DNA of 32,915 nt from Myxococcales bacterium (GTDB lineage Bacteria; Myxococcota; Myxococcia; Myxococcales; 40CM-4-68-19), in NCBI GenBank assembly GCA_020201435.1, contig JAIVGS010000011.1, forward strand, positions 1-32,915. Reading direction: 5' to 3'. Positions 7,133-15,510 of the stretch are shown here, piece after piece; within the stretch, counting starts at the first letter, position 1, and every line of letters starts with the position of its first letter. The position numbers and the translations under genes were made by a program. The notes under the pieces were generated by a model. That model was not told the DNA's origin. It saw only the letters and a program-made list of their open reading frames with translations, and ran no database searches.

Positions 7133-8161
7133 ATGAAAATCGCGGTCCTGACCGGCGGCGGAGATTGTCCGGGCCTCAATGCGGTGATCCGCGCGGTGGT
7201 CCGGCGCGGCGAGCAGCACGGGCTCGAGGTGATGGGCGTGCACGAGGGCTGGCGGGGACTGATGGATCCGCCGCTGCACGATCGGCTCACCCGCGAGGCG
7301 ACCAGCGGAATCCTGCATCTGGGCGGCACGATCCTCGGGACCAGCCGGACCAACCCGTTCAAGAAGCCGGGCGGGTCGGAGATGGTGATCAAGAACCTCA
7401 AAGGCCTGAACGTCGGCGCGGTGGTGGCGATCGGCGGCGAGGATACGCTCGGCGTAGCGACCAAGCTGTCGACGATGGGCGTCAACGTGGTGGGGGTGCC
7501 GAAGACGATCGACAACGACCTGTCGGGCACCGACCTGACGTTCGGGTTCGATACCGCGGTGCAGATCGCGACCGAGGCCATCGACCGCCTGCACTCGACG
7601 GCGGAGTCGCACAACCGGGTGATCGTCTGCGAGGTGATGGGGCGGCACGCGGGGTGGATCGCGACGCACTCGGGGATCGCGGGCGGAGCGGACGTGATCC
7701 TGATTCCGGAGAAGCCGATCGAGATCGAGAACGTGTGCGAGCACATCCAGCGGCGGCATCGGTCGCGGGGAGTGAACTTCTCGATCGTGGTCGTCGCCGA
7801 GGGAGCGAAGCTCGGGGGGAGCGAGGCGAGGATCGCCGAGAAGCTCGACGAATTCGGCCACATCCGGCTGGGCGGGATCGGGCAGCAGATCGCGGAGCTG
7901 ATCGAGAAGAAGACCGGGTTCGAGACGCGCTCGACGGTGCTCGGGCACATCCAGCGGGGAGGGTCGCCGACGGCGTTCGACCGCGTGCTCGGGACGCGGT
8001 TTGGCGTTCATGCGGCGGACATGGTGGCGCGGGGAGAGTGGGCGAGGATGGCGGCGCTGAGGGGGAATGAGATCGTGAGCGTGCCGCTGGCGGAGGCGAC
8101 GGCGAAGCTGAAGACGGTGCCGCCGGAGTTTTTCGCGGTTGCCGAGGTGTTTTTCGGGTAG
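7133..8161 (+). CDS. 6-phosphofructokinase, likely pyrophosphate-dependent (mixed-substrate group)
   Basis: A 342-residue PfkA-family enzyme phosphorylating fructose 6-phosphate to the 1,6-bisphosphate in glycolysis. Motifs: GGGDCPGLN (8-16), PKTIDND (123-129, with catalytic-type Asp127), 'MGRHAGWIA', and C-terminal 'GHIQRGGSPTAFDR'. Numbering happens to match the E. coli enzyme. At position 104, Gly in ATP-dependent enzymes, this protein has Asp (GGEDT, 101-105), and at 124 it has Lys. Asp104 plus Lys124 is the recognised signature of pyrophosphate-using PFKs. PPi dependence is therefore inferred, which would make the step reversible. The ATG at 7133 has a GAGG ribosome-binding site about 10 bp upstream. 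The stop is followed within about 12 bp by a simple-sequence tract. Confidence 0.92.
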   Translation: MKIAVLTGGGDCPGLNAVIRAVVRRGEQHGLEVMGVHEGWRGLMDPPLHDRLTREATSGILHLGGTILGTSRTNPFKKPGGSEMVIKNLKGLNVGAVVAIGGEDTLGVATKLSTMGVNVVGVPKTIDNDLSGTDLTFGFDTAVQIATEAIDRLHSTAESHNRVIVCEVMGRHAGWIATHSGIAGGADVILIPEKPIEIENVCEHIQRRHRSRGVNFSIVVVAEGAKLGGSEARIAEKLDEFGHIRLGGIGQQIAELIEKKTGFETRSTVLGHIQRGGSPTAFDRVLGTRFGVHAADMVARGEWARMAALRGNEIVSVPLAEATAKLKTVPPEFFAVAEVFFG

Positions 8162-8172
8162 TTGCGAGAGCG

Positions 8173-8340
8173 GAAAAGAGAACGAGAACGAGAACGAGAA
8201 CGAGAACGAGAACGAGAACGAGAAGGAGAAGGAGAAGGAGAAGGAGAACGAGAAGGAGAACGAGAAGGAGAAGGAGTTTTGGAGAAGGAGAACGAGAAGG
8301 AGAACGAGAAGGAGAAGGAGAAGGAGTTTTGGAGAAGGAG
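8173..8340 (+). repeat. Purine-rich GAGAAC/GAGAAG tandem repeat tract
   Basis: About 170 bp of near-continuous hexamer repeat follows the pfk stop codon. It begins with about seven GAGAAC units (to about 8220), then changes to GAGAAG mixed with GAGAAC. A larger unit ending in AAGGAGTTTTGGAGAAGGAG is present twice (around 8272-8290 and 8322-8340), so there is a higher-order duplication. The plus strand is almost all purine. Open frames crossing it (Glu-Asn and Arg-Glu repeats) are artefacts of the period of six. Such tracts change length by slippage and can adopt unusual structures. No function is visible. Confidence 0.9.
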
Positions 8341-8434: not shown

Positions 8435-8513
8435 GTCGTCCTTCGTTCGGCATCGTTCGGCCTCCCGCCTTCGGCTTTGTTTGAGGAGGCCGAACGATGC
8501 CGAACGGGACGAC
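8435..8513 (+). promoter_or_regulatory. Long hairpin covering the ribosome-binding site and start codon of the IVS-family gene
   Basis: A 22-bp perfect inverted repeat (8444-8465 with 8485-8506) has a 19-nt loop and is extended, after a 2-nt bulge (8442-8443), by 7 more pairs (8435-8441 with 8507-8513). The right arm contains GAGGAGG (8483-8489), a strong Shine-Dalgarno sequence, and the ATG at 8497-8499 with correct spacing. In RNA the left-arm CCTCC would pair with GGAGG. If the region is transcribed, translation of the downstream gene should be shut off by structure. Alternatively it is a mobile palindromic element that happens to supply the start. Confidence 0.7.
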
Positions 8514-8847
8514 TGGGTTGCTTCACGAAAAGCTGATCGCGTGGCAGGTCGCGTGCGAGTTGCTGCGCGTGGTCAGGGATGCACGGATTTCTGACGCGAA
8601 ATTGCGCGATCAGGCGATGAGGGCGGCGCAGAGCGCGTGTCTGAATATCGCCGAGGCCAACGGGCGGGATTCGCCGGCGGATCGGAGGCGGGTGTTTGCG
8701 ATTGCGCGTGGTGAAGCCGCTGAGGCTGCCGCCGCCGTGCAGGTTGCGGCGATTTCGGGGTGCTGCGCGGAGCCCATTGCTGACGAGGCTCGTCGGATCG
8801 GCGGCAGGGTGGCGGCGCTGCTCTCGGGACTGATTCGGTCGATGTAA
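8497..8847 (+). CDS. Four-helix-bundle protein of the 23S rRNA intervening-sequence (IVS) family
   Basis: A 116-residue helical protein. The family pattern is clear: 'LIAWQVACELLRVV' in helix 1, 'LRDQAMRAAQSACLNIAEANGR' in helix 2 (consensus L-xx-Q-xx-RAA-S-xx-NIAEG-xx-R), and 'RRRVFAIARGEAAEAAAAV' in helix 3. Members form small pentameric four-helix bundles and are found inside 23S rRNA intervening sequences or as stand-alone chromosomal genes. Their function is not established. The ATG at 8497 sits inside a long hairpin; an in-frame TTG at 8518 is an alternative start just outside the stem. Only 1 bp separates its stop from the start of the FHA activator gene. Confidence 0.85.
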   Translation: MPNGTTGLLHEKLIAWQVACELLRVVRDARISDAKLRDQAMRAAQSACLNIAEANGRDSPADRRRVFAIARGEAAEAAAAVQVAAISGCCAEPIADEARRIGGRVAALLSGLIRSM

Positions 8848-8848
8848 G

Positions 8849-10228
8849 ATGCCGGCCATGGCGGGGACGTTGACGCCGGCGATGGGGATCAAGCGGTCGG
8901 CGCCGGCGGCGCCGCCGGTTGCGGCGCTCTATGTCGCGTTGCAATGCGAGAGGCCCGGCGCGCCCACTTCGAGGCACCTGCTGACCGAGATCGACAAGGT
9001 CGCGATCGGACGCGGCGAGCATCCGGCGGTCGTCCGGCGCGCGAACGAGATGATCCTGACGCTGGCCGACACCTGGATGTCGCAGAAGCACGCGATCCTG
9101 CGGCTCTCGGGTGCGCGCTGGATCGTCGAGGACGCGGGCTCGCGCAACGGCACGCTGGTCAACGGCGCGCCGTGCACGCGGGCGGTCCTCAAGGACGGCG
9201 ACGTGGTCGAGCTCGGCCATACGCTGCTGTTGTTCCGGGAAAAGGTCGCGGCGAGGCCCCCGCTCGACCTCGACGCGAAGCAGCTCGAGGCGCCGGCGCA
9301 CGGGCTGGCCTCGTTCGCGCCGGGGTTGATGGCCGAGACGGCGCGGCTGCGGACCATCGCCCGGTCGACGGTCAGCGTGGTGATCCACGGCGAGTCGGGC
9401 AGCGGGAAGGAGATCGCCGCCCGCGCCCTGCACCAGCTCTCGGGACGGCCGGGGCCGTTCGTGGCGGTCAACTGCGGGGGCATCGCGAAAAACCTCGTCG
9501 AATCCGAGATGTTCGGCTACCGAAAAGGGGCGTTCTCGGGCGCCGACGAAGACCGGCCCGGCCTGATGCGCAGCGCCGACAAGGGGACGCTGTTTCTCGA
9601 CGAGATCGCCGACCTGCCCTCTGCCGCGCAGGCGGTCCTGCTCCGGGCGCTGCAGGAATCGGAGGTGGTGCCGGTGGGGGCGACGCGGCCGGTCAAGATC
9701 GACGTGCGCGTCCTCGCCGCGACGCATTACGACCTGCAGGAGCAGATCGCGGAAGGGGCCTTTCGCGCCGACCTGTTCGCGCGCATTTCGGGGTTCACCG
9801 TCCGGCTGCCGCCGCTGCGGGAGCGGCGGGAGGACCTCGGCCTGCTGATCGGCGAGATCCTGAAACGGCTGACGCCGGACGCCGTCCAGCTCACGCCCGC
9901 CGCCGCCCGCGCGCTCTTCGCGTACCAGTGGCCGCTCAACGTCCGCGAGCTGGAAAAGTGCCTGGCCACCGCGGTGATCCTCGCCGCGGGGCAGCCGATC
10001 GACGTCCAGCACCTTCCGGACTGGGCCCATCCGTCCGAGACGCCGGTGGCGCAGAAGCCGGTGCCTCCGCCGACCGAGGACGACATCCGCCAGCGCGACG
10101 AGCTGCTCGCGCTGCTCAAGGAGCACCGCGGCAACGTCTCTTCGATCGCTCGCGCGATGGGCAAGGCGCGGATGCAGGTGCAACGCTGGCTCAAGCGCTA
10201 CGGCCTCGATCCGGAGGAGTTTCGCTAG
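8849..10228 (+). CDS. FHA-domain sigma54-dependent transcriptional activator
   Basis: A 459-residue enhancer-binding protein. The N-terminal domain (about 45-130) is an FHA phosphothreonine-binding module with its key residues: Arg55 (IGRG), Ser78 and His81 (SQKH), and Asn100 (SRNGT). The AAA+ domain (about 150-385) has Walker A GESGSGKE (181-188), Walker B TLFLDE (247-252) and the sigma54-contact loop as GAFSGA (227-232; consensus GAFTGA). A Fis-type helix-turn-helix lies at about 425-455. There is no receiver domain, so the input is probably a Ser/Thr-kinase-phosphorylated partner, as known for myxobacterial FHA activators. The next operon has a -24/-12 promoter with repeated upstream sites, so it is the likely target. 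ATG 8849 is used; in-frame ATGs at 8858 and 8882 are alternatives. Confidence 0.93.
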   Translation: MPAMAGTLTPAMGIKRSAPAAPPVAALYVALQCERPGAPTSRHLLTEIDKVAIGRGEHPAVVRRANEMILTLADTWMSQKHAILRLSGARWIVEDAGSRNGTLVNGAPCTRAVLKDGDVVELGHTLLLFREKVAARPPLDLDAKQLEAPAHGLASFAPGLMAETARLRTIARSTVSVVIHGESGSGKEIAARALHQLSGRPGPFVAVNCGGIAKNLVESEMFGYRKGAFSGADEDRPGLMRSADKGTLFLDEIADLPSAAQAVLLRALQESEVVPVGATRPVKIDVRVLAATHYDLQEQIAEGAFRADLFARISGFTVRLPPLRERREDLGLLIGEILKRLTPDAVQLTPAAARALFAYQWPLNVRELEKCLATAVILAAGQPIDVQHLPDWAHPSETPVAQKPVPPPTEDDIRQRDELLALLKEHRGNVSSIARAMGKARMQVQRWLKRYGLDPEEFR

Positions 10229-10273
10229 GTGCAACACGGGTGCAACAGCGGCGCACGCGGGGCGAGATGTTGC
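10228..10273 (+). promoter_or_regulatory. Candidate upstream activating sites for the FHA activator
   Basis: Two identical GGTGCAACA boxes lie at 10228-10236 and 10239-10247, exactly 11 bp apart (one helical turn). An inverted half-site TGTTGC (complement of GCAACA) lies at 10268-10273. They sit about 75-120 bp upstream of the transcription start predicted from the -24/-12 promoter, the usual place for enhancer sites bound by sigma54 activators. The activator gene itself ends at 10228. Binding by this activator is inferred. Confidence 0.6.
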
Positions 10274-10324
10274 GCTTACATTTGATTACAACCTGAAATC
10301 AGCCACTTGACGTATGCGTCCGGT

Positions 10325-10338
10325 GGCGCGCGCCTTGC
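10325..10338 (+). promoter_or_regulatory. Sigma54 (-24/-12) promoter
   Basis: The sequence from 10324, TGGCGCGCGCCTTGCT, matches the sigma54 consensus TGGCACG-N4-TTGCW with one mismatch. The invariant GG (10325-10326) and GC (10337-10338) are separated by exactly 10 bp. Transcription should start near 10350, about 20 bp before the ATG at 10369, leaving room for the GGGGAGGA ribosome-binding site at about 10356-10363. Confidence 0.75.
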
Positions 10339-10368
10339 TCTTCCCCTCCTCACGAAGGGGAGGACCAA

Positions 10369-10527
10369 ATGCGCAATCTGATCCGTGAATGGGGATTTCC
10401 GGCCGGTCTGGGCACGCTCTGGGTGCTCGCTCTCGTCTACACGCTGCACGCGGTGAGCGGTCTGCCGCAGGGGCAGCCGCGGCGAGAGGCGCCGGTCACC
10501 CGCGAGAGCCCCTCGACCAACTCGTAG
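10369..10527 (+). CDS. Small single-pass membrane protein (52 aa) at head of the GMC operon
   Basis: This 52-residue ORF begins at ATG 10369, just after a strong GGGGAGGA ribosome-binding site, and ends with TAG 10525-10527. It has a short basic N-terminus (MRNLIREW), one hydrophobic helix at about 10-32 and a polar, Pro/Arg-rich tail, so the tail is probably outside if the positive-inside rule holds. It is the first gene after the sigma54 promoter and lies 25 bp before the Tat-signal subunit gene. It might anchor or help assemble the GMC enzyme at the membrane, but no family is recognised and this role is inferred from position. Confidence 0.7.
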   Translation: MRNLIREWGFPAGLGTLWVLALVYTLHAVSGLPQGQPRREAPVTRESPSTNS

Positions 10528-10552
10528 GCCGCGCGATGGTATACGAGCGAGC

Positions 10553-11155
10553 ATGTCCGAGGGCCGCCGCGGCCTGCTCAAGAAAACCCTTGGGGGAGCG
10601 GCGCTGCTCGTCGCCGCGGGAGCGGTTCCGATCGCGCTGCGCCGGACGAGGCTCCGAACGCCGCGGTCGCCGCTCCGCTTCTTCACCCCGGCGGAGTACA
10701 GCATCTGGGCCGCCGTCGCGGAGCGCGTCCTGGCCCGGGACGCGACCGCAGCGACTGCGGAGGGGGACGGCGTCGATCAGGCCGCGCTTCGGGGGGAGCG
10801 CCGGCCTGCCGCGCCGACCCCGAGCGAGATCGACGTCGCCGGGAAGGCCGACGCGTTCCTCGCTCCGCTGCCGGCGAACGACGCGCGCGACCTGAAGCAG
10901 CTGCTGGCGCTGTTCGACAACGCGCTGTTCAGCGTCGTCACCGGCGGGCCGCCGCGGCCGTTCACGCAGATGGACGCGGCGGAGCAGGACGCGCACTTGA
11001 CGCGCTGGGAGACGTCGCGGCTGGCGATCCGGCGGACCGGGTTCCAGGCGATGAAGCGGCTTTGCTGCGCGCTCTATTTCTCGGACCCGCGAACGTACGC
11101 GTCGATCGGGTACCCGGGGCCGCCGGTCGAGCTGGTGAGGTCGGTCGTCCGATGA
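10553..11155 (+). CDS. Gluconate 2-dehydrogenase subunit 3-like protein with Tat signal
   Basis: A 200-residue protein. The N-terminus 'EGRRGLLKKTLGGAALLVAAGAVPIAL' has a twin-arginine motif (Arg-Arg-Gly-Leu-Leu-Lys) followed by a hydrophobic core, so it should be exported folded by Tat. The body ('FFTPAEYSIWAAVAERVLARD', a central 'LKQLLALFDNALF', then 'RWETSRLAIRRTGFQAMKRLCCALYFSDPRTYASIGYPGPP') is typical of the small subunit that accompanies membrane-bound GMC dehydrogenases. In known complexes this subunit carries the signal-less flavoprotein through Tat as a hitchhiker. The next gene fits that role: its ATG overlaps this stop by 4 bp and encodes a GMC enzyme with no signal peptide. Confidence 0.85.
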   Translation: MSEGRRGLLKKTLGGAALLVAAGAVPIALRRTRLRTPRSPLRFFTPAEYSIWAAVAERVLARDATAATAEGDGVDQAALRGERRPAAPTPSEIDVAGKADAFLAPLPANDARDLKQLLALFDNALFSVVTGGPPRPFTQMDAAEQDAHLTRWETSRLAIRRTGFQAMKRLCCALYFSDPRTYASIGYPGPPVELVRSVVR

Positions 11156-12639
11156 TCCATCGCGGCAGCGACAAGGATCTCGTCCTGAAACCGGACGTTT
11201 GCGTGGTCGGCAGCGGCCCTGGCGGCGCGATGGTGGCCTCGCGGCTGGCGCGCAAGGGCGCAAGCGTCGTCGTCCTCGAGGAAGGCGGCTATCACCTGAA
11301 GGACGAGTTCGACATGCAGGAGGCGACCGCGTACCCGCGCCTCTACCAGGACCGCGGGCAGCGGGCGACGGCGGACCTCTCGATCTCGGTCCTGCAGGGC
11401 CGAGCGGTCGGCGGCGGGACGGTGGTCAACTGGACCACCTCGTACCGCACGCCCGACGACGTGCTCACGTACTGGCGCGACCATTTCGGTCTCGGCCTCG
11501 GACCCGAGACGCTGAAGCCGCACTTCGAGGACGTCGAGCAGCGGCTGGGCATCCGGAAGGTCGACCTCGAGGATACCAACCCGAACAACCGCGCGATCTA
11601 CGACGGCTGCAGGAAGCTCGGCTGGCAAGTCGACACCATCCGGCGAAACGTGCGCGGCTGCCTGCGGACCGGGTACTGCGGGATGGGCTGTCCGGTCGAC
11701 GCCAAGCAGTCCGCGACGCTCACGTACCTGCCTGACGCGGTCGCGGCCGGTGCGGAGGTGTACTCCGACTGCCGCGTCGATCGCATCGAGTGGTCCGGCC
11801 GGCGCGCGACAGGCGCGATCGGGTACTTCGGGTCCGGGAGGACGGCGCGGGTCGAACCCCGGGTGGTCGTCGTCTCGGGCGGGGCGATCAACTCTCCGGC
11901 CCTGCTGCTGCGCTCGGGCATCGCTGGAAACGTCGGTAAATACACATGGTTACATCCCGTGGTCGCGATGGGCGCGTTCTACGACGAGGCCATCGAGGGC
12001 TTCTACGGCGCGCCCCAGAGCGTCGCCTCGCATCACTTCGCGCACCGGACCGAGGGCGCGGGGTTCTTCATCGAAGCCGCGCCGGTCCATCCGATGCTGG
12101 CCTCGATCGCGATGCCCGGCTTCGGCGCGCCGCTGCGGGCGCGGATGGACCTGCTGCCGAACGTGTGCGCGACCATCTCGCTGATGATCGACGGGTTCGA
12201 CGCCTCGGAGCGCGGCGGCACCGTCACGCTGCGGCCCGACGGCGGCCCGCGACTCGACTATCCGTTCACCGATCGCATCTACGAGTGTTTTCGCGCGGGA
12301 ATGAAGGCGATGGCGCGCCTGCACCTCGCCAATGGAGCGCGCGAGGTCGTCAGCTTCCACGCCTCGCCGGTCCACATCCGGCGCGAGGACGATCTCGCGC
12401 TGCTCGAGTCGGCGCCCCTCGGGCCCAACCTCTTCGCGGCCTTCACCGCGCACCAGATGGGCGGCTGCCGGATGGGCGCGGATCCCGCGGTCTCGGTCGT
12501 GGACCCGCAGCTCAGGCACCACGACTTCGAGAACCTCTTCGTCGTCGACGGCAGCGCCTTTCCGACTTCACTCGGCGTGAACCCGATGGAGTCGATCTAC
12601 GCCCTCGCGTCCTGGGCCTCGCAGCAGATCCTCGCGTGA
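11152..12639 (+). CDS. GMC-family FAD-dependent oxidoreductase
   Basis: A 495-residue flavoenzyme, probably oxidising an alcohol, sugar or sterol. The FAD-binding motif VVGSGPGG (18-25) is at the N-terminus, followed by an acidic end of strand 2 (LEEGG), 'GRAVGGGTVVNWTT' (83-96), and C-terminal active-site residues His434 (HQMGGCRMG) and Asn477 (GVNPMESIY). Three cysteines, Cys170, Cys176 and Cys180 (GCLRTGYCGMGC), lie where Fe-S-containing FAD-glucose dehydrogenases carry their cluster; long-chain alcohol oxidase-like GMC proteins also have similar cysteines. No signal peptide: export is probably with the preceding Tat subunit. A frame open further upstream is discounted because ATG 11152 gives a 4-bp coupled overlap. 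No cytochrome c gene is adjacent. The substrate is unknown. Confidence 0.92.
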   Translation: MIHRGSDKDLVLKPDVCVVGSGPGGAMVASRLARKGASVVVLEEGGYHLKDEFDMQEATAYPRLYQDRGQRATADLSISVLQGRAVGGGTVVNWTTSYRTPDDVLTYWRDHFGLGLGPETLKPHFEDVEQRLGIRKVDLEDTNPNNRAIYDGCRKLGWQVDTIRRNVRGCLRTGYCGMGCPVDAKQSATLTYLPDAVAAGAEVYSDCRVDRIEWSGRRATGAIGYFGSGRTARVEPRVVVVSGGAINSPALLLRSGIAGNVGKYTWLHPVVAMGAFYDEAIEGFYGAPQSVASHHFAHRTEGAGFFIEAAPVHPMLASIAMPGFGAPLRARMDLLPNVCATISLMIDGFDASERGGTVTLRPDGGPRLDYPFTDRIYECFRAGMKAMARLHLANGAREVVSFHASPVHIRREDDLALLESAPLGPNLFAAFTAHQMGGCRMGADPAVSVVDPQLRHHDFENLFVVDGSAFPTSLGVNPMESIYALASWASQQILA

Positions 12640-15322: not shown

Positions 15323-15510
15323 AGCCGTGCCCGTCCCCGTCCCCGTTTTCGAGCACGTGCCCGTGCGGGTGCAGGTGCCCGTGCTGGTGAGCGGGCACGT
15401 CCACGGGCACTGGCACGTGCCCCCGAGCACGGGCACGGCCACTCCCACGTGCCCCCGAAAACGGGCACGGGCACTGGCACGTGGCCCCCAAAACGGGCAC
15501 GGGCACAGCT
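15323..15510. repeat. GTGCCC/GGGCAC-rich region with three 32-bp tandem units
   Basis: The whole gap between the convergent genes exbD and pcnB is low-complexity CCCGTGCC/GGGCACGG sequence. Its right part consists of three head-to-tail 32-bp units, 15414-15445, 15446-15477 and 15478-15509, each starting CACGTG and containing a stem of the type GTGCCC...GGGCAC. The left part (15328-15413) contains degenerate copies of the same hexamers in both orientations. RNA from either strand would fold strongly, so it could act as a two-way terminator. Confidence 0.85.

Follow-up and report, generated by a model that had tools for sequence, protein, structure and literature searches.

A predicted sigma54 activator and membrane microprotein cassette ahead of a GMC oxidoreductase pair in a myxobacterial genome

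What does an FHA-domain sigma54 activator control when a -24/-12 promoter, a very short membrane protein gene and a GMC oxidoreductase operon follow it in that order? Such an arrangement lies in a 32,915-nucleotide stretch of a Myxococcales bacterium (assembly GCA_020201435.1, contig JAIVGS010000011.1; hereafter the window), which is contig C108 of genome G000 (4.76 Mb, 363 contigs, 96% complete). A sequence-only reading had described it as a self-contained module with the GMC operon as the probable target. From the anatomy, conservation, family enrichment, triad geometry and insertion pattern, all read from sequence, we arrive at a different answer, which we hold to be reasonably likely: the unit joins a sigma54 activator and a microprotein in one cassette and has a small regulon in trans, and the GMC operon is probably co-transcribed by virtue of its position.

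The activator gene itself was correctly recognized. Its product, ending at 10228 and possibly starting at the second ATG (8858), matches the Pfam models FHA (3.6e-13), Sigma54_activat (1.7e-57) and AAA_lid_14, as well as weak helix-turn-helix models. The AAA+ sigma54-interaction domain has a GAFTGA-type loop (GAFSGA) and intact Walker A (GESGSGKE) and Walker B (LFLDEI) motifs, as in bacterial enhancer-binding proteins. The R, S, H and N residues that matter in FHA domains are present (G54-R55, S78, H81, N100), which places the protein in the FHA type of this class. The same genome encodes RpoN (PF04552, G000:C105, 209 bits). The predicted function of the activator is to bind upstream sites and to activate a -24/-12 promoter. 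It is 79% identical to its counterpart in genome G002 and 70% to that in G001; matches at E ≤ 1e-60 occur in 60 of 60 genomes, as expected of a large family.

Immediately behind the activator gene, the two TGCAAC boxes 11 bp apart, the inverted half-site and the -24/-12 promoter with exact GG-N10-GC spacing are all present where the sequence-only reading had placed them. Sigma54 promoters follow the consensus TGGCACG-N4-TTGCW, on which we based a score with self-chosen weights and a maximum of 16.5, counting sites of at least 14 as strong. At 15.5, the promoter at 10324-10339 is the top-scoring site in the window on either strand; four others reach 14.0-14.5, one of which is the box pair read backwards. 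The promoter is conserved in G002, the nearest relative with an activator at the GMC locus, and in the G001 cassette described below. G002 also keeps both boxes, the inverted half-site and the GG-N10-GC spacing, within a 140 bp intergenic region that is 81% identical (114 identities, 26 mismatches, 10 gap columns), a value comparable to the 82-86% of the coding sequences. The box repeat alone is borderline (6-mer count, p 0.125; longest repeat, p 0.055), and single-locus repeat statistics were mostly not significant; the boxes draw their evidential weight from conservation and the genome scan, not from repeat statistics.

The promoter is followed by an open reading frame (ORF) of 52 codons, the conserved first gene under it, whose product has one predicted helix. 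Comparison with G002 gave a ratio of nonsynonymous to synonymous substitution (dN/dS) of 0.375 over the whole frame and 0.206 over the first 34 codons; the frame has evolved under purifying selection in these two lineages. Its relatives share the core REWGFPv..i..W.vA.AYTL, with best 18-residue hydropathy means of 1.4-2.3. None of 22 scanned members had a convincing Pfam, NCBIfam or PDB match; the weak ones were a single Pfam hit of one member to a yeast kinase family (0.0023), NCBIfam hits in up to two members (best 0.051) and a best PDB value of 0.19.

To what extent do such microproteins stand behind sigma54 promoters elsewhere? A profile of five microproteins chosen via their activators (A1) matched at E ≤ 0.01 in 10 of 145 genomes of the order, at 28 places, i.e. 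the five seeds and 23 others. A strong sigma54 site lies within 160 nt upstream of 10 of these 23 non-seed places; shuffled upstream DNA yields 1.0%, giving a binomial probability of 1.4e-14 with rows treated as independent, although the related genomes in this and the other counts are non-independent samples. A second profile of 22 microproteins (A2) matched in 14 of 147 genomes of the class, namely nine of the 12 in the window's family and five of another family, G138 being the strong one among the latter. Here 16 of 26 members have the promoter, or 11 of 21 without seeds (binomial 1.8e-17), with sites 40-62 nt before the start; five A2 matches (G010:C183, G005:C73, G006:C159, G008:C155 and G000:C103) are left out of the promoter counts. 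In the 96-nt stretch before real control ORFs, a sigma54 site was found in 2 of 349. Because the A2 rows were picked after their upstream DNA had been seen, and six A1 matches, all promoterless, had been omitted, the A2 count is biased, and we replaced 11/21 by the unselected 10/23.

The same order emerges when one starts from the activators. Among the best 30 activator loci, eight carry a strong sigma54 site within 120 nt of the stop codon (the window, L068, L142, L147, L149, L151, L148 and L158). At L142, L147, L149 and L148 the next ORF is short with one hydrophobic stretch, an arrangement also seen at L194; the 78-residue L148 protein is absent from the list of family profile matches. Behind the L151 and L158 activators lie genes for an exported-looking and a kinase-like protein, and a Polyangium activator (L250, 53% identical) is followed by GCGCAAC repeats, a TGGCACC-N4-TTGCC site and an exported-looking protein. 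A sigma54 switch with a membrane microprotein as its conserved first product is supported by these comparisons.

Table 1. Positions of the features discussed (window coordinates)
Feature	Position	Strand	Basis
Phosphofructokinase gene (pfk), insertion-site marker	7133..8161	+	Pfam PFK; directly upstream of subunit gene in five cassette-less relatives
FHA / AAA+ sigma54-interaction / helix-turn-helix activator (enhancer-binding protein) gene	8849..10228	+	Pfam, motif residues, identity to relatives
Two direct TGCAAC boxes, predicted enhancer	10230-10235, 10241-10246 (11 bp apart)	+	Kept in G002; triad also at G000:C33 and G000:C77
Inverted half-site GTTGC	10269..10273	-	22 nt past box 2
Sigma54 -24/-12 promoter TGGCGCGCGCCTTGCT	10324..10339	+	GG-N10-GC exact; score 15.5/16.5
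52-residue membrane microprotein, REWGFP family (52-codon ORF)	10369..10527	+	Profile homologues; dN/dS against G002
TATACG, -10-like element, candidate old promoter of the pair	10540..10545	+	4/6 positions match TATAAT
Tat-signal small subunit, gluconate 2-dehydrogenase subunit 3-like	10553..11155	+	Pfam, conserved pair, twin-arginine start
GMC-family flavoenzyme	11152..12639	+	GMC_oxred_N 3.3e-52, GMC_oxred_C 9.3e-24; ATGA overlap with subunit gene

The idea of a self-contained module gave way when the genome was scanned, since the box triad with a sigma54 promoter stands at two other places in G000. The pattern TGCAAC-N0..10-TGCAAC occurs three times there, in the window and at G000:C33 and G000:C77; in all three cases a sigma54 site lies 77-85 bp downstream and an inverted GTTGC 21-22 nt past the second box (22, 21 and 22 nt; 23 nt in G002). 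The pattern was derived from the window, so that only the other two places test it. Strong sites occur at ∼0.11 per kb per strand of G000 DNA. The chance of a sigma54 site in such a stretch is ∼2.6%, which for two of two amounts to about 7 in 10,000. The gene at G000:C33 encodes an 85-residue protein with one hydrophobic stretch, and that at G000:C77 a 464-residue exported-looking protein in which a HEYGH motif was recognized by eye. In G001 (L240), a TGCAAC/GTTGCA box cluster precedes another REWG microprotein with a site of 15/16.5. Across 14 genomes, the triad-plus-promoter pattern was found in seven, at nine places, four of them in G003, G007, G010 and G011, as against two places in one genome for the reversed control. 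The activator thus probably serves, in trans, a small number of further envelope genes with this triad and promoter.

The view that the GMC pair is the conserved target was not supported. The order expected for related genomes was kept in G002 (L068: pfk, activator, small ORF, subunit, GMC, with the contig ending inside GMC), which alone among 45 fetched regions has the activator immediately ahead of the subunit gene. In a further seven family genomes, pfk and the subunit gene share a contig: five (L067, L070, L072, L074 and L111) have them at most ∼170 bp apart with no activator in the gap, and in two (L071 and L075) other sequence, without an activator match, separates them. Because the pair directly follows pfk in five of seven cases, the activator, promoter and small ORF look inserted. 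On the simplest reading, all three were acquired by the lineage to which the window and G002 belong, at a point between pfk and the pair. The tie between activator and GMC also comes apart in G001, where the 70%-identical activator, with promoter and microprotein, is on contig C113 and the GMC pair on contig C65; behind this G001 cassette (L142), a hairpin and T-run resembling an intrinsic terminator were recognized by eye. The idea that the G001 position has a clean empty counterpart was dropped, the two-flank comparison not being simple: in eight genomes, the 136-1500 bp of DNA available ahead of the rlmL-like gene that flanks the G001 cassette matched neither the activator nor the ORFs of the other flank.

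By its distribution, the subunit-GMC pair is old, with matches in 43 of 99 genomes for each protein, its own included (subunit, E ≤ 1e-5; GMC, E ≤ 1e-80). An automatic procedure placed both the twin-arginine motif and the start codon in 41 of 45 subunit loci (L067-L111), the window included; four were set aside, three without a recognized RR and one without a start. Within 300 nt upstream of the subunit gene, a strong sigma54 site was found in 2 of these 41 loci, the window and G002, which are those with the inserted cassette. The conservation proposed for boxes and promoter holds in G002; in the other 39 judged loci the promoter, which alone was counted, is missing (score below 14). The oxidoreductase genes behind the microprotein are probably passengers.

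Several results weigh against this interpretation. The cis boxes are not always kept, as the G001 orthologue has no TGCAAC boxes behind the activator gene or within 500 nt before it. Box pairs without a downstream promoter make up four of five in G001 and five of six in G002, the remaining G002 pair being the cassette itself, and in G000 the box pair is not enriched (3 versus 15 in the reversed control). Nor is the exact promoter pattern enriched genome-wide in G000, with 8 matches versus 10 reversed, which makes this count useless by itself. Thirteen of the 23 non-seed A1 places lack a sigma54 site, scoring at most 12, and some of them may be false family members. Finally, no terminator was seen in the 25-bp gap between microprotein and subunit gene (10527-10553), so that the pair may be a real target in the window species and G002.

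Whether the pair is read from the sigma54 promoter at all bears on the best-surviving alternative, by which a short-leader promoter of its own (TATACG, 10540) solely drives it and the sigma54 transcript ends before it. A -10-like hexamer at -20 to -9 occurs in 19 of the 41 loci versus 93 of 1472 controls, for which the first ATG of every ORF with at least 150 codons was taken, spurious ORFs included; this automatic count replaces an earlier 21/24, for which loci had been hand-picked and some starts moved. Given this enrichment and the TATACG kept in the window, the pair may retain an older, separate promoter. However, the window element shares 4 of 6 positions with TATAAT, such a hexamer is missing from 22 of 41 loci, and the gap without a visible terminator is compatible with read-through; sole control by this promoter seems to us possible at best, and rather unlikely. 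Less likely still is that the activator evolved to control an exported GMC oxidoreductase, with the small ORF as an accessory subunit of the enzyme. Gene order is as the sequence-only reading gave it, small membrane ORF, Tat-signal subunit and GMC; the genes are co-directional in the window and G002 with ∼25 bp between small ORF and subunit gene, subunit and GMC genes overlap in the window, and no terminator was seen between them. Yet the near absence of sigma54 sites upstream of the subunit gene, the relatives of the microprotein at many other places and the wide occurrence of the pair without the activator all speak against it. A chance origin of the -24/-12 match and the boxes in GC-rich DNA is barely credible: strong sites occur in G000 at the rate given above and the window holds five, but G002 keeps site and boxes, G001 keeps the site, sites are enriched before microproteins and the triad geometry is shared.

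For the cassette with its trans regulon, we infer DNA binding, phospho-control, transcription and microprotein function along the following lines. A phosphothreonine signal would be read by the FHA domain, whereupon an activator hexamer would form on the TGCAAC triad and its GAFSGA loop contact sigma54-RNA polymerase at 10324-10339. Transcription would start near 10350, and the microprotein would be made first. As the cassette sits between pfk and the old pair, the latter would probably be read from the sigma54 promoter in addition to its own. Input from a Ser/Thr kinase is plausible, since it fits the FHA domain and since 14 of 27 family activators have kinase motifs within 3 kb, a raw count taken without a background rate; a motif search of the window found no kinase motif. 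We guess at a role of the microprotein in the cell envelope, given its hydrophobic core and the nature of the other predicted targets.

FHA-domain sigma54 enhancer-binding proteins of Myxococcus xanthus were reportedly the subject of work by Jelsbak, Givskov and Kaiser in 2005. The window activator resembles them in its FHA-AAA+-HTH (helix-turn-helix) layout, in having a loop for sigma54 contact and in its FHA residues; the account of the adjoining boxes, promoter and microprotein comes from the present analysis. Both the FHA type of sigma54 activator in M. xanthus and themes in the genome context of sigma54 are already known (PMC12288465, PMC3162934 and PMC12316311). Deleting sigma54 is reported to be lethal in M. 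xanthus (PMC12316311). The genome-context analysis PMC3162934 (Francke et al. 2011) places activator genes near sigma54 targets and finds exterior-related targets. The window is alike in having an activator, a promoter and predicted exterior-related targets; it differs from that theme in that the conserved target is a microprotein of fewer than 60 residues and further targets are predicted in trans. In the open-access literature searched, we found no description of the microprotein family or its sigma54 link.

With a predicted enhancer that adjoins the activator gene and recurs with fixed geometry, targets of FHA activators become predictable and testable. The locus also points to sigma54-driven membrane microproteins, which annotation may easily pass over because their genes are very short, and to a route by which an unrelated metabolic operon may come under sigma54 control. 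A wider proposition, to which we give even chances, is that undescribed membrane microproteins of 29-72 residues are a main sigma54 output in one myxobacterial family, their promoters being switched by FHA activators whose own enhancer adjoins the end of the gene, and that activator, enhancer, promoter and microprotein move between loci as a cassette that can capture any operon lying downstream.

The pair itself has the make-up of a GMC dehydrogenase dependent on flavin adenine dinucleotide (FAD) with a twin-arginine translocation (Tat) small subunit, the GMC gene adjoining that of a Tat-signal subunit 3 protein (RRGLLKK start) whose Pfam Gluconate_2-dh3 match, at 23.1 bits, does not reach the cut-off of 23.4. 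FAD-dependent fructose and glucose dehydrogenases include a Tat small subunit, and the pair is like them in combining it with a GMC flavoprotein in which no signal peptide was seen by eye. It differs in its weak similarity to the solved large subunits (7w2j and 6a2u, ∼43-47 bits) and in that none of the scanned neighbours encodes a cytochrome c, a search that did not extend to other parts of the window or genome. The next genes past GMC encode a pseudouridine synthase and a MotA/ExbB protein.

Some further observations concern the regulatory DNA. A block ATCAGC-ACTTGACGTA, ∼10-26 bp before the -24 element, is near-identical in the window, G002 (L068) and G001 (L142), and is kept in G001 although the boxes are missing there. 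The palindrome GTGGCGCCAC lies upstream of five sigma54 microprotein promoters (L189, L192, L193, L194 and L147) and just past the stop codon of a family activator in G005 (L152); it is possibly a second box type of the activator family. A helix-box specificity code (GKARMQ-QRW with TGCAAC, GKARTQ-QRW with GTGGCGCCAC), seen by eye only, is not claimed, and is contradicted by L153, L142 and L250, which lack exact TGCAAC, L144, which lacks the other box, and L194, which has both. We likewise rejected a hairpin that would cover the ribosome-binding site in the RNA (z -0.66; equally good in 44 of 200 shuffles), the 5′ arm of which would lie at or before the expected transcript start. At L149 and L194, an ORF with a lipoprotein-like N-terminus (AACG, by eye) follows the microprotein within ∼50 bp.

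The gap between pfk and the activator gene differs between the window and G002: in G002, 17 bp separate pfk from the likely activator start, and the window carries at 8178-8326 a 24-copy array of a GAGAAG-type hexanucleotide that is absent from G002. At 8497-8847, ending 1 bp before the activator ORF, the window also has a gene for a protein of the 23S ribosomal RNA (rRNA)-intervening-sequence type (PF05635, 2.1e-14), which is missing at the G002 locus. Further downstream, at 15402-15506, lies a 32-bp tandem repeat of 3.3 copies, the unit of which starts CACGGGCACTGGCACG.

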